DNA of 64,000 nt. Origin: Lysobacterales bacterium (lineage in GTDB: Bacteria; Pseudomonadota; Gammaproteobacteria; Xanthomonadales; SZUA-5). How positions within the stretch are numbered: the stretch's first letter is position 1; every line of letters begins with the position of its first letter. Made by a program: the position numbers and the translations under genes. Below the pieces are notes generated by a model that made no database searches, had not been told where the DNA came from, and was given only the letters and a program-made list of their open reading frames with translations. Positions 1,075-38,830 of this stretch are shown here, piece by piece. Where the stretch lies: positions 1 through 64,000 of the forward strand of contig JALHMG010000002.1 in NCBI GenBank assembly GCA_022844135.1, in the 5' to 3' direction.

Positions 1075-2847
1075 TTACGGGCTCAAGCGCCCCAATTGCT
1101 CGGCGCGCAGTCGCGCGACAGGGTAGCGCAGATGCCGCTCGTCATAGTGCGGCAGGCGGCGGTAGAAGAAACGAAGTCTTGCCGCCGCGTCGGCCGCGAA
1201 CTCCGTCCGTTGAAGCTCGGCCTCGAACGCCGCCTTCAGCATTGGATCGGCAGCCATCATCTCCCGCGCCATGCGCTCCATGACGCGCGGCTCGACGTAC
1301 TCGGTTTGCGTCATGAAACCATCGCCGTAGCCCATACGCACCAGAGAATCGGGGCCAGCTGGTTCCAGCAAATGCGCGATGATCGGATTGCGCGGCTGGT
1401 CGAGGGGGACCAGCACGCTGCCCACCGGAAAGCTCAGCGACTCGCGCACCGGCGTCAGATTCAACGACGCGACGCGCACGCGGCCCTCGAAGGGCTGCGG
1501 TGCGTAGGTCACGTCCGAGAAGCGATAGGTGTCGGCCTCCTCCAGTGTGATCGCTTCCTGGATGCGCACGAAACGTACGCCATGCGTTTGCAGGGCCTTG
1601 ATCGCGGCGGTCCACGACGCTGGGATGAGGTAGCCATGCGGCAGCGCGACGGTCGTCTCGGGTTCCAACGTCTGCTTGAGCGGCACTTGAATGCGTTCTG
1701 GTTTAGCGCTGTAGCGCGTCCACAGCGCGCCGGACACTTCGCTCGGCACCCGCTCGTACTGGAACCCAAGAAATTCTGTGCTGTCGACTTTGTCGCCGAG
1801 CTTGAAGCGCAGGGTGTAGGGCTTGCCGGCCAACGCGGCCGCCACCGCGTCGGCGCCCTGATTGACCGTCTTCAGCGCCGCCGGATCGGCTGCGACGTGC
1901 GCGACCAGCGCAGCGATGTAGTCCTCGTTGACCTCGGTGCGCGTCTTGAAGTCTTTCAACATGTGCGTTTCGAGCAGCAGCGTCGGCCGATTCGCGGCGG
2001 CGCCGAAGCCGCTGGAAAAGCGTGGCGTGGACGCGCCCCAGGCGATGCCGCGGCGCGGATCGTCGAAAACCAATTGATCGAAATACGGCGCCAAAAGCCA
2101 GCCCTTGTTTTTCAGCGCTTCGGGAATGGCGGTATCGAACGCCGCCTTCTGCCACTGCCGGGCACCCTCGTGCACCGACGCGTGGCGTTCGTACGCGTAG
2201 GTCAGGTGATACTGATAGTCCGCGCCGTTAGTGTTGTGCATGTCGACCAGAAGATCCGGGTTCCATGCTTGCCAGTGCGCTTGCCAAGCGCGCATTTCCG
2301 GCGACTCGACCTTGAGGAAGTCGCGATTCAAGTTGTAGTTCTGTGCCGTCGAACGCCAGCCGGTTTCGTCAGGACCATTCTGATTGATGCGATGCGGACC
2401 GACGTTCTCATGTCCATCGACGCTGAAAATCGGCAATAACACCAGTACCACTTCAGCGCGCTCTGAGGCTTGCTGATCCTCGATCAGCCAATCGCGCGCC
2501 AGCGCCATCAGCGCGTCTTTGCCTTCGTTCTCGCCGGGATGGATGCAGGCCTGGATCAGCAGCACAGGTTTGCCGCTCGCGTGCGCGGCGGGCGGCGTGA
2601 ACTCGCCGCCGCTGGCGATCACGACATTGAACAGAGCGCGCCCTTCCGGCGACACACCGAATTCGTTGATGGCGATTTGCGTCGGCGCTGCCGCCTTCAG
2701 GCGCTCGAAATAGGCACGTGTTTCCGCGTAACTCGGCGTGCGCGTGAACCTTGACGCCTCAGCGGGCGTGCGCCAGTCTGCGGCGAACGACGGACGCGAC
2801 AACAGCAAGGCCGGAAGGACCGCGAGCAAAACCAGGAGCGCGCGCAT
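1075..2847 (-). CDS. Secreted M14 family zinc carboxypeptidase
   Basis: This 590-residue protein starts with a clear signal peptide (charged MR, hydrophobic LLVLLAVLPALLL, cleavage near SFAADW), so it is exported. Zinc-site motifs of the M14 carboxypeptidase fold are visible: HPGENEGKDA (HxxE ligands, about residue 102), NYNLNRDF with the substrate-binding Asn-Arg, VDMHNTNG (third zinc ligand His) and a late LLLETHML region that can supply the general-base Glu. It is longer than classical carboxypeptidase A; the C-terminal ~250 residues form an extension seen in bacterial M14-like proteins. It lies upstream of the MlaF-type gene on the same strand. Likely role is hydrolysis of peptides outside the cytoplasm; specificity cannot be read from sequence. 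Confidence 0.85.
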   Translation of the reverse strand: MRALLVLLAVLPALLLSRPSFAADWRTPAEASRFTRTPSYAETRAYFERLKAAAPTQIAINEFGVSPEGRALFNVVIASGGEFTPPAAHASGKPVLLIQACIHPGENEGKDALMALARDWLIEDQQASERAEVVLVLLPIFSVDGHENVGPHRINQNGPDETGWRSTAQNYNLNRDFLKVESPEMRAWQAHWQAWNPDLLVDMHNTNGADYQYHLTYAYERHASVHEGARQWQKAAFDTAIPEALKNKGWLLAPYFDQLVFDDPRRGIAWGASTPRFSSGFGAAANRPTLLLETHMLKDFKTRTEVNEDYIAALVAHVAADPAALKTVNQGADAVAAALAGKPYTLRFKLGDKVDSTEFLGFQYERVPSEVSGALWTRYSAKPERIQVPLKQTLEPETTVALPHGYLIPASWTAAIKALQTHGVRFVRIQEAITLEEADTYRFSDVTYAPQPFEGRVRVASLNLTPVRESLSFPVGSVLVPLDQPRNPIIAHLLEPAGPDSLVRMGYGDGFMTQTEYVEPRVMERMAREMMAADPMLKAAFEAELQRTEFAADAAARLRFFYRRLPHYDERHLRYPVARLRAEQLGRLSP

Positions 2848-3617: not shown

Positions 3618-4289
3618 ATGCGAATCTCTGCGATAAAGGCAAGCTCGATTCTGACGACGGACGTGATGTTCGATTCTCTTGCTCGCTGGCTGATGCTGAG
3701 CGCCGCGCGCTGGCTCACTGGCGTGCGCGCGATCTGGCCGGATAGCGGCGTGCCGACCGGGCCGTGCGTGTTCTTCGGCAACCACGTGAGCCACGGCGAC
3801 TTCGCGTTGATCTGGTCGGTGCTGCCGCCGCACCTGCGCGAGCGCACCCGGCCCGTTGCGGGCGCCGACTACTGGGAGAAGGACGCGTTGCGGCGCTACG
3901 TTGGTCGGCAGGTGGTGCGCGGTGTGCTGATAGAGCGCGACAAGGCCAAACGCACGCTCGATCCGATCGAGCAGATGAGCGCGGTGCTCGGCGCAGGCGA
4001 CTCGCTGATCCTGTTTCCTGAAGGCACCCGCAATCTGACCGACGCGCCTTTGCTGCCGCTGAAAAGCGGGTTGTTTCACCTGGGCCGGCGTCACCCGAAC
4101 ATACCGCTGATACCAGTGTGGATCGACAACTTACACCGGGTGTTGCCCAAGGGCGAGTTGCTGCCGGTACCGCTGCTGTGCACGGCGCGATTTGGCGAGC
4201 CGATCGCGGTCGGAGATGACGACAAAGACGTCTTTCTGCAGCGGGCGGCGGCAGCGATGTTGGGGCTGAGGCCTTGCAGCGTGCGCTGA
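3618..4289 (+). CDS. PlsC-like 1-acylglycerol-3-phosphate acyltransferase family protein
   Basis: A 223-residue acyltransferase of the PlsC/LPLAT family. Motif I is NHVSHGD (H-x4-D catalytic pair, about residue 55), motif III is FPEGTRN (about residue 135), and IPLIPVWI resembles motif IV. These enzymes acylate lysophosphatidic acid or related lysophospholipids at the inner membrane. An in-frame ATG at 3666 is an alternative start that would remove 16 residues. The gene points toward cdsA, which uses the phosphatidic acid that PlsC enzymes make. Essential PlsC itself may be another gene; this could be a remodelling acyltransferase. Confidence 0.82.
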   Translation: MRISAIKASSILTTDVMFDSLARWLMLSAARWLTGVRAIWPDSGVPTGPCVFFGNHVSHGDFALIWSVLPPHLRERTRPVAGADYWEKDALRRYVGRQVVRGVLIERDKAKRTLDPIEQMSAVLGAGDSLILFPEGTRNLTDAPLLPLKSGLFHLGRRHPNIPLIPVWIDNLHRVLPKGELLPVPLLCTARFGEPIAVGDDDKDVFLQRAAAAMLGLRPCSVR

Positions 4290-4294
4290 ACCTT

Positions 4295-4439
4295 TAGCAG
4301 GCTGTTGAGAAACAGCCTGCTAGCGCGAACCATGGATGGTTCGCACATTGATCAAGCACGGCGTTTGATCAATGGAGAGCGAGTCCGGACATGCGCCGGA
4401 CTCGCGACTTGAGAAACGCACAGGAAGTGCGTTTCTCAA
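4295..4439 (+). repeat. Five-hairpin intergenic repeat element, copy A
   Basis: Five inverted repeats follow each other almost without gap, all perfectly paired: H1 4295-4306/4311-4322 (12 bp, GAGA tetraloop), H2 4325-4333/4336-4344 (GCGAACCAT), H3 4346-4355/4365-4374 (CATTGATCAA), H4 4379-4388/4396-4405 (GCGAGTCCGG), H5 4409-4421/4427-4439 (TTGAGAAACGCAC). H1 starts 5 bp after the acyltransferase stop codon. Related copies lie at 28810-28956 and 38661-38804. No T-run follows H1, so it is not a standard intrinsic terminator. Function unknown; 3'-end RNA structure or a mobile palindromic element are both possible. Confidence 0.85.
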
Positions 4440-4514
4440 CATCGTGTTAGATGCACTCGCATATGTCCGCGATGGAACAGCATCATTTCTTGAGAGGCAT
4501 TTCGATGAATCAGA

Positions 4515-4724
4515 AGCGAGGGCACGAGAGCACGAGGGCGCGAGGGCACGTGCTTGGTTGGGAGAACTCAGTGCTTTGGTCGACAGAGCCATCGACCTCG
4601 CTCGGTTGTCGCTGGCCTGCGCAGTTGTTTCCGCACTCAACAGTCGAAAGTCTGCGCTGTCATGCGTGCGATGGCCTTCAACGAAGCACGTGCCCTCGTG
4701 CCCTGGTGCCCTCGTGCCCTCGCT
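4515..4724. repeat. 210-bp element bounded by 41-bp imperfect inverted repeats of GAGGGCACG type
   Basis: The left arm (4515-4555) and the reverse complement of the right arm (4684-4724) match at 38 of 41 bases. Each arm is itself a degenerate tandem repeat of a 9-base unit close to GAGGGCACG. The 128 bp between the arms hold no convincing gene. Together with the five-hairpin repeat this explains the 517-bp gap between the acyltransferase gene and cdsA. The structure looks like a small non-autonomous palindromic element; no transposase or target-site duplication was identified by eye. Confidence 0.7.
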
Positions 4725-4806
4725 TTTCCGAACAGCCAGACCGACATCTGCAAGCGAGCGCTAGTGCCTGCATCGAAGTGAGGGAGCGCGCCCCACGGAG
4801 TTTCGC

Positions 4807-5738
4807 ATGACTGAGACCTGGCGCTTGTTTGCGGGCATTTTCGGCGTTCTGATCATCGCCACCGCGATTGCTCAAACACTGCGTTGGCGGGTTGCGAAGT
4901 GGCAGCCGCACAGCGTGATCGACAACCTCACGGCACGCATCAACGCCTGGTGGGCGATGGTGCTGCTGATTGCGCTTGCGTTCTTCTTCGGCAAGGGCGG
5001 CGTCATCGTGCTGTTCGCGCTGTTGTCGTTCCTGGCGCTGCGCGAGTTCGTCACCTTGAGCTACACACGGCGCTCCGATCACCTGGCGTTGGCGATGTGC
5101 TTTTACGTTGCGCTGCCGGTGCAATACGCCTTCGTGTGGATCGAGTGGTATGGGATGTATTCGATCTTCATCCCGGTCTACGGTTTTTTGTTTCTACCAA
5201 TCATCGCCGCCTTGCGCAGCGATACGACGCATTTCCTGGTGCGCATCGCAGAAGTGCAGTGGGCGCTGATGCTGAGTGTGTTCTGCCTGTCGCACGTGCC
5301 GGCGCTGGTGACCTTGAATATTCCTGGTTTCGAAGGCCGGCACTTGTTCCTGATCGCCTTCCTGGTCATCGTGGTGCAATCGAGCGATGTGCTGCAGTAC
5401 GTCTGGGGCAAACTTTTTGGCAAGCGCAAAGTGGCGCCAGAATTGAGCCCGTCGAAGACCTGGGAAGGCCTGATCGGAGGCGTCGCCAGCGCCACTGCAT
5501 TGGGCGCCGGGTTGTATTGGTTGACGCCGTTCTCGCCCCTCGAAGCTGCCGGCATTGCCCTGGCGATCAATGTGATGGGCTTTCTGGGTGGATTGGTGAT
5601 GAGCGCGATCAAACGCGATCTCGGCGTCAAGGACTGGGGACATCTGATTCCAGGCCACGGCGGTGTGCTCGACAGGCTCGATTCGGTGCTGTTCTCGGCG
5701 CCGGTGTTCTTCCACATCGTGCGCTATGGCTACACACC

Positions 5739-5742
<4 letters not shown>
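4807..5742 (+). CDS. cdsA: Phosphatidate cytidylyltransferase
   Basis: CdsA converts phosphatidic acid and CTP into CDP-diacylglycerol, the precursor of all major phospholipids, in the inner membrane. The 311-residue protein has about eight hydrophobic segments and near its C-terminus the full family signature: S-A-I-K-R, then V-K-D-W-G, then P-G-H-G-G-V-L-D-R-L-D. The upstream SPSKTWEG motif is also typical. The start ATG at 4807 begins MTETWRLF. The stop overlaps the radA GTG start (GTGA, 5739-5742). With the nearby acyltransferase and CDP-alcohol phosphatidyltransferase it forms a phospholipid gene neighbourhood, split by two repeat elements. Confidence 0.93.
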
Positions 5743-18490: not shown

Positions 18491-18689
18491 CAGAGTGGCC
18501 TGTCCACACGTCGCATGTCGTTGTGCCTCGGGTCTGGTGTATTAAGCAACCAGAGGGACGTCGTAAACCCCATGGCCACGGATGGCCAGCCCGCAGCTCG
18601 AACACGCAAGTGATTGATGTGCGGGAGTTTCGTCGCTACTCGACGCTCAAAACCTTGCGCCCGCCAACCAATCAGCAACCGATGACGCC

Positions 18690-28809: not shown

Positions 28810-28956
28810 GCAGCTTGTCGAGAAGCAAACTGCGGCGCGAACCACGGATGGTTCGGCATGGACTGAACAGAGCGATCGATCCATCGCGAGCGAGTCCGGA
28901 CAAGCACCGGCCTCACGACTTGGGGAACGCAAAGGAAGTGCGTTGCTCAACAAACT
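28810..28956 (+). repeat. Five-hairpin intergenic repeat element, copy B (degenerate)
   Basis: The order of modules equals copy A: GCAG...CTGC (28810-28833), CGAACCA/TGGTTCG (28838-28844/28849-28855), a weakened third hairpin ATGGA/TCCAT, GAGTCCGG facing CCGGCCTC, and TTGGGGAACGCA facing TGCGTTGCTCAA. Stems carry one or two mismatches, so this copy is decayed. It begins two bases after the sRNA terminator T-run and ends 14 bp before the next coding start. Confidence 0.75.
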
Positions 28957-28969
28957 GTCAGGGCGCCCG

Positions 28970-38538: not shown

Positions 38539-38660
38539 GGCGGGCGCTCGGTGGTGGGCCGTCGAACAATAGCAGCGAGTGAACCACCGGAGGTCCCACG
38601 GCCTGGGGATGGCCCCCATGGCCTTGGTGGCGACGGCAAACCGACGCCACCTGGCACGGT

Positions 38661-38804
38661 CTTGAGAAACGCACATACTGTGCGTGTCTCAAGTCGCGAG
38701 TCCGGCGCACGCCCGGTCTCGCTCTCCATGGATCAAGCGCTGTGCTTGATCCATGCGCGAACCATCGCTGGTTCGCGCCAGCAGGCTGTTTCGCCACAGC
38801 CTGC
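38661..38804 (-). repeat. Five-hairpin intergenic repeat element, copy C (minus orientation)
   Basis: On the plus strand the modules appear in order H5-H4-H3-H2-H1: H5 38661-38675/38679-38693 (14 of 15 paired), H4 GCGAGTCCGG facing CCGGTCTCGC (one mismatch), H3 CATGGATCAAGC/GCTTGATCCATG (12 bp perfect), H2 GCGCGAACCA/TGGTTCGCGC (perfect), H1 GCAGGCTGT/ACAGCCTGC (perfect, 38781-38804). The element therefore points along the minus strand, and its H1 starts 26 bp after the stop of the secreted hydrolase gene. Confidence 0.85.
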
Positions 38805-38830
38805 CAGGCGCATTCCTGTTTGGCGTGAGG

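Follow-up and report, generated by a model that had tools for sequence, protein, structure and literature searches.

A mobile row of five hairpins in Lysobacterales and other Pseudomonadota with loops resembling CsrA/RsmA sites

What kind of sequence consists of five hairpins in a row, and why would bacteria keep it between two genes? This question is raised by a short intergenic region in the window, i.e. the whole stretch of 64,000 nucleotides from a Lysobacterales bacterium that was analysed here.

The five-hairpin row and its setting

The region lies between the gene of a PlsC-like acyltransferase (3618-4289, plus strand), whose stop codon precedes the element by a few bases, and that of a CdsA-like cytidylyltransferase (4807-5742, plus strand). 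A repeat search of the window recovered five perfect inverted repeats in tandem at positions 4295-4439, with stems of 12, 9, 10, 10 and 13 bp and spacers of 1-4 nt, at the same positions and with the same stems as in the original prediction. In the RNA and DNA foldings that had been suggested as a check, this row lies far beyond chance expectation: the minimum free energy as RNA is -89.7 kcal/mol compared to -43.1 ± 3.9 kcal/mol for dinucleotide shuffles (z = -12.1, reached by 0 of 200 shuffles), and folding of the DNA strand results in a z-value of -14.2.

We designate the hairpins A to E; all are given on the plus strand. Hairpin A (4295-4322) has 12 bp and a GAGA loop. Hairpin B (4325-4344) has 9 bp when regarded as a palindrome, and as RNA it is predicted to form a 7-bp stem with the hexaloop AUGGAU (4332-4337) above the closing pair C4331-G4338, which by its sequence is of the ANGGAN type typical of CsrA/RsmA sites. 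Hairpin C (4346-4374) has 10 bp, or 12 when folded, and a consensus loop GYAA that is shorter in the window copy. The GC-rich hairpin D (4379-4405) combines 10 bp with a 7-nt loop and exhibits compensatory changes in its outer pairs. Hairpin E (4409-4439) has 13 bp with an A-rich and a T-rich arm, and its loop AGGAA (4422-4426) is part of a CAGGAAG that resembles the CsrB repeats.

Further downstream, in the intergenic stretch 4505-4735, there are facing GAGGGCACGAG and CTCGTGCCCTC runs about 150 bp apart, which resemble another small inverted-repeat element.

Copies, ends and relatives of the IS5 family

The original prediction had counted three copies in the window. The covariance model detected these and a degenerate fourth: besides the first copy (match at 4324-4449, plus strand), there is a more diverged one at 38652-38806 on the minus strand (match at 38652-38777), the cassette part of a third at 28836-28960 on the plus strand (76 bits) and the degenerate one at 18570-18678. 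The genome as a whole (G000, 5.34 Mb in 75 contigs) contains at least 40 dispersed matches with 84-98% identity. The absence of further copies, which had been named as an outcome speaking against a genuine element, is therefore clearly not what was found.

When the copies were aligned together with their flanks, the similarity started at CAGGCTGTTGAGAAAC and stopped at GTTTCTCAACATCGTG. These limits shift the originally given boundaries slightly, since the element proper comprises the 149 bp from 4298 to 4446 (plus strand) between two identical TTAG sequences at 4294-4297 and 4447-4450. Its terminal inverted repeats (TIRs) have 16 bp, 14 of which match (4298-4313 within hairpin A and 4431-4446), and a search of the genome with the end-sequence pattern yielded 110 sites, compared to 12 for the reversed control. 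Outside the copy ends we found YTAG, CTAA, ATAG or CTAT. The 4-bp flanks were identical in 40 of 70 copies from several genomes, compared to a mean of 16.4 and a maximum of 25 in 2000 shuffling trials. These identical 4-bp flanks of the form YTAR are target duplications, which makes the element a 149-bp MITE of the DDE type.

In another genome of the same genus (G001), three orthologous sites lack the element, and at the one that corresponds to the window locus the plsC orthologue is followed by the same four-base spacing and then by a single TTAG. The window site is the only one of the three with a recognisable single TTAG, and the right flanks are too diverged to be aligned. These observations fit a lineage-specific insertion at the plsC locus. 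Queries of plasmid and phage records with the window copy gave no match.

A degenerate transposase next to one TIR in the own genome (locus L085) served as query for related insertion sequences. In G031, we found a complete IS about 1.29 kb long (L188) with perfect TIRs CAGGCTGTTGAGAA inside a TTAA duplication, and in G001 an IS (L187) with an intact transposase of 364 amino acids, which carries the same ends. Both transposases belong to the IS5 family (NF033581 of NCBIfam; 261 and 244 bits at a cut-off of 140). Autonomous IS with the ends of the MITE are thus present in relatives, and the own genome shows a degenerate copy only. Two other DDE_Tnp_1 loci of this genome (L183 and L185) were considered as parent IS and rejected, as they are without TIR. 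The IS in L187 occupies the CTAG beside hairpin B, i.e. the usual place of hairpin A, and its other CTAG borders on a second MITE. The ends of this second MITE are TGTGGTGTCCCAAAAATAACT; it likewise occupies CTAG sites and is often a direct neighbour of the five-hairpin element in the own genome and in G001 (L071, L075, L187, L020, L010). The degenerate IS5 transposase at L085 has an in-frame fusion partner (2239-2385, minus strand), in which we recognised by eye a fragment resembling the N-terminus of integron-type integrases (LLRQVRDAIHVRHYSLRNETAIG).

The suggestion of a small mobile element is therefore well supported by TIRs, target duplications and IS5-family relatives with the same ends, and judged by these features the five-hairpin element is almost certainly a MITE of the IS5 type. 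It shares with known IS5-family MITEs the TIRs, the 4-bp YTAR duplication, the lack of a gene, the high copy number and the presence of an IS with matching ends in relatives. An IS5-family DDE transposase would move it in trans by recognising ends of the CAGGCTGTTGAGAAAC type and would duplicate the 4-bp YTAR target upon insertion.

REP/BIME sequences are likewise multicopy intergenic palindromes, but they are moved by RAYT (Y1) enzymes, and although four Y1 transposase matches exist in the own genome, neither a copy nor a TIR nor a D hairpin was found within about 1.5 kb of these four genes. The element also begins with YTAR-CAGG.TGTTGA and has five hairpins, instead of a single hairpin on a GTAG-type foot, and what accompanies it are YTAR duplications and matching IS5 ends rather than any link to RAYT. 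The original exclusion of REP/BIME held in all tests made here, and mobilization by a RAYT enzyme, already disfavoured, can be regarded as extremely improbable.

Conservation of the element interior

Relatives were gathered across named genomes with hairpin D as bait. All matches came from members of the Lysobacterales or from metagenome-assembled genomes named Gammaproteobacteria or Proteobacteria, and the genera include Rhodanobacter, Dyella, Fulvimonas, Rehaibacterium, Mizugakiibacter, Pseudomarimonas and Aquimonas. The order of the hairpins is the same in most of these relatives. In 34 diverse B-C-D-E sequences (alignment A2), 22 of the 34 pairs are changed on both sides; 94.5% of the paired cells remain paired, compared to 80.0% after shuffling and 32-43% after sliding, and there are 174 double-changed cells compared to 53 after shuffling. 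Since hairpin D was the bait of that scan, its invariance is in part a result of selection by the method; in Rhodanobacter spathiphylli and outside the order it varies with compensation. A loss of pairing in related genomes had been named as a second outcome against the element, and clearly the opposite was found.

The covariance model R1, which covers hairpins B-C-D-E and whose E-values are rough, detected this cassette in 73 of 299 genomes of the order (37 of 85 genera), in 28 of 274 genomes of the class and in 39 of 398 genomes of a phylum sample, where the matches outside the class belong mostly to one family. Unlike in other IS5-family MITEs, the interior looks like an RNA whose conservation extends over genera and families and past the class, and the ends are interchangeable: sequences read from the model matches are laid out with all five hairpins, and the terminal ones vary, as in GGATGCTCTGAA..TTCAGAGCATCC with YTAR flanks. 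Judging from the covariation, selection at the RNA level on the element interior is likely, which would make it a rare case of a MITE where the interior and not the ends alone is under selection.

The element also occurs in parts. In the own genome there are a solo hairpin A (L078), a solo hairpin E, perfectly palindromic with a CTAG at each end (L074), and A-B-C forms (L072, L075), and at a locus of G011 (L037, 1320-1960) one A-like hairpin is followed by a tandem array of five 130-bp B-C-D-E units. Together with the CTAG between A and B and the IS at the position of A in L187, such forms could be taken to mean that palindromic mini-elements inserted serially into each other's CTAG and left a functionless string of hairpins. 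Such a by-product, which we consider very unlikely, is already disfavoured by stems that covary and by hairpins whose arrangement and spacing stay fixed throughout the order, the class and beyond.

The hairpins might alternatively be required at the DNA level, as single-stranded hairpins or cruciforms needed by the transposase for excision or insertion. Here, the strand-specific test is of special interest, as selection on RNA tolerates G-U but not A-C. In the class set, the ratio of G-U to A-C is 63:7 for hairpin C (29:4 if counted once per genome and position), 12:3 for hairpin B and 12:17 for hairpin E. The values for R. spathiphylli are 34:1 for C, 6:0 for A, 5:3 for D and 4:5 for E, and the A-C cells of its hairpin B are nearly all found at the position that flanks the hexaloop. 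Hairpins A and B of the first copy set had little or no bias. Selection on a sense RNA is thus supported by hairpin C and weakly by B, and is not supported by E. Hairpin E overlaps the TIR, and a constraint at the DNA level may exist there; its lack of a G-U bias, the terminal repeats contained in A and E, and the existence of A and E as solo elements that have CTAG- or CCAG-type ends would all agree with a need for the hairpins in transposition. Such a need does not account for the strong one-strand bias in C, nor for B, C and D, which keep their loops and stems regardless of which ends the element uses. We therefore regard it as improbable, and the cruciform DNA of the original prediction received no positive support.

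Loops, stop codons and a possible link to CsrA

If selection acts on an RNA, the loops deserve a closer look. Among 136 model matches from 36 genomes of the class, the B loop holds GGA in 122 of 131 parsed copies and the E loop in 124 of 133, whereby it has to be considered that R1 was built mostly from GGA-containing sequences and favours matches that bear GGA. The majority form per genome contains GGA in 33 of 36 genomes for B and in 34 of 36 for E. Hairpin B carries CANGGANG in 110 of 136 matches and the full ACARGGAUGU in nine. In another 40 copies, 37 of them from genomes beyond the class, CANGGAN occurs in B in 33 and GGA in E in 38, and GGA loops are also found in the copies that were gathered without a model, with hairpin D alone as bait. 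A strict GNRA loop is present in hairpin C in 84 of 130 matches. There are exceptions: roughly between a quarter and a third of the copies of R. spathiphylli depart from GGA in B, and the copies of G454 are without it. At one locus of G454 (L338), high-GC tandem copies have a GATAAG-like B loop.

Known CsrA sites have GGA in a hairpin loop, with the hexaloop ANGGAN, the SELEX consensus RUACARGGAUGU and the CsrB repeats CAGGA(U/A/C)G (PMC7652899), and the consensus for RsmA of Xanthomonas is ACARGGAUG (PMC3937308). Each copy of the element offers two loop GGA motifs, an ANGGAN hexaloop closed by C-G in B and CAGGA(A/C/U) in E, both in agreement with this published consensus. The stems are more stable than those of most SELEX ligands (compared to PMC7652899). 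GGA alone is not decisive, since RsmA still binds the RNA RsmU when its four GGAs are replaced (PMC7694677). The presence of CsrA is uninformative as a discriminating test because 235 of 274 genomes of the class possess it; among the element-bearing ones it is missing in G307, G391 and G421, each with weak element matches only. From motif and structure, CsrA binding is the best available reason for the conserved loops, to which we give slightly less than an even chance.

The 3' ends of genes are the second aspect. Because the YTAR target contains the stop codons TAA and TAG, the MITE readily lands there, and this also explains why 34 ends of the 70 YTAR-type copies coincide with in-frame stop codons. 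Of these, 17 are in sense and 17 in antisense; no orientation preference at stop codons is apparent in these 70 copies, so that sense transcription is not selected in the YTAR type. The picture differs for a variant with the ends CTGA-GAGGTTGTGA in R. spathiphylli, where 24 of 26 copies start in sense orientation on the in-frame TGA of the upstream open reading frame, compared to 23% expected (P about 7e-14) under a null that relies on a crude gene finder and lets insertions fall randomly on YTGA sites that are non-coding or stops. The reading frames that end at these copies have coding-like GC3 in 25 of 26 cases, and in ten other genomes 23 of 27 TGA-type copies are placed in sense in the same way. 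Targeting and selection both fit this placement and cannot be separated by these data, and the variant raises a concrete question of target choice. In R. spathiphylli B39 (L194-L223), we noticed about 40 copies on in-frame TGA stops in sense orientation, with a differing end type.

The structured 3'-UTR RNA of the original prediction is thus a candidate supported by covariation, loop conservation and the sense placement of the TGA-type variants at stop codons. One could also assume a mobile bidirectional terminator or insulator, which survives by landing harmlessly on stop codons and by supplying a 3' end, with hairpins that act as terminator and RNase barrier and have no role for CsrA. In many genomes, hairpin E has a GC core between an A-rich and a T-rich arm, which would suit such a function, as would the placement at stop codons, in both orientations for the YTAR type and in sense for the TGA type. 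However, the T-tract after hairpin E is short in the own genome, and neither the GGA kept in the B and E loops while the stems vary nor the GNRA-type loops in C are explained in this way, so that we consider this alternative unlikely.

Our best reading is a MITE that carries a 3'-end RNA binding CsrA, and we see the chances for and against it as evenly balanced. The cargo of the MITE would be a conserved structured RNA that is transcribed as 3'-UTR wherever a copy sits at the 3' end of a gene. Hairpin B with its ANGGAN hexaloop and hairpin E with its CAGGA(A/C/U)G loop would represent two candidate CsrA/RsmA sites, held apart by C and D as a spacer, and E is terminator-like as well. The likely outcome would be that CsrA-bound copies tune the stability of their host mRNAs and jointly titrate CsrA. 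We infer such transcription and binding, as well as any benefit to the element or the host, from these features.

CsrA activity depends on the number of GGA hairpins that a cell transcribes. If the reading is true, a transposon that multiplies GGA hairpins would rewire a global regulator via copy number and landing site. It would also help to explain how CsrA is tuned in orders without recognised CsrB/RsmZ sponges; in Xanthomonas, homologues of rsmB had not been identified (PMC3937308).

Comparison with known systems reveals partial similarities. The sponge RNAs CsrB/RsmB and RsmX/Y/Z also present a row of hairpins with loop GGA matching the CsrA consensus, whereas the five-hairpin element is multicopy and mobile, has two loop GGAs per copy and gave no match in Rfam 15, even at E-values up to 1. 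RsmU (sRX061) of Xanthomonas campestris is an RsmA-binding 3'-UTR RNA from the same order but a single locus (PMC7694677), and is set beside the element by its description. QMITE1 and QMITE2 of Coxiella burnetii are MITEs that reach about 50 copies in a genome and are a source of small RNAs; in contrast to our element, QMITE1 has 300-400 bp, and the QMITEs are described in one species, with no link to CsrA in the text searched (PMC5896051). A search of the open-access literature revealed no description of such an element, so that, as far as this literature and Rfam 15 reach, the family may be previously undescribed. In its widest form, our reading would be that of an undescribed family of transposable elements across Pseudomonadota with a CsrA/RsmA-binding 3'-end RNA as cargo, selfish and plugged into or feeding on the global post-transcriptional regulator of its host, with precise, sense-oriented insertion at stop codons in some lineages. 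We put this forward tentatively, as something rather less probable than not, on the basis of the genomic comparisons described here.

A further variant was noticed in R. spathiphylli (L209, L213 and L222), where hairpin B is split by an inserted stretch (GCGAGGGCATGG...GCAACGCAGGAGC).
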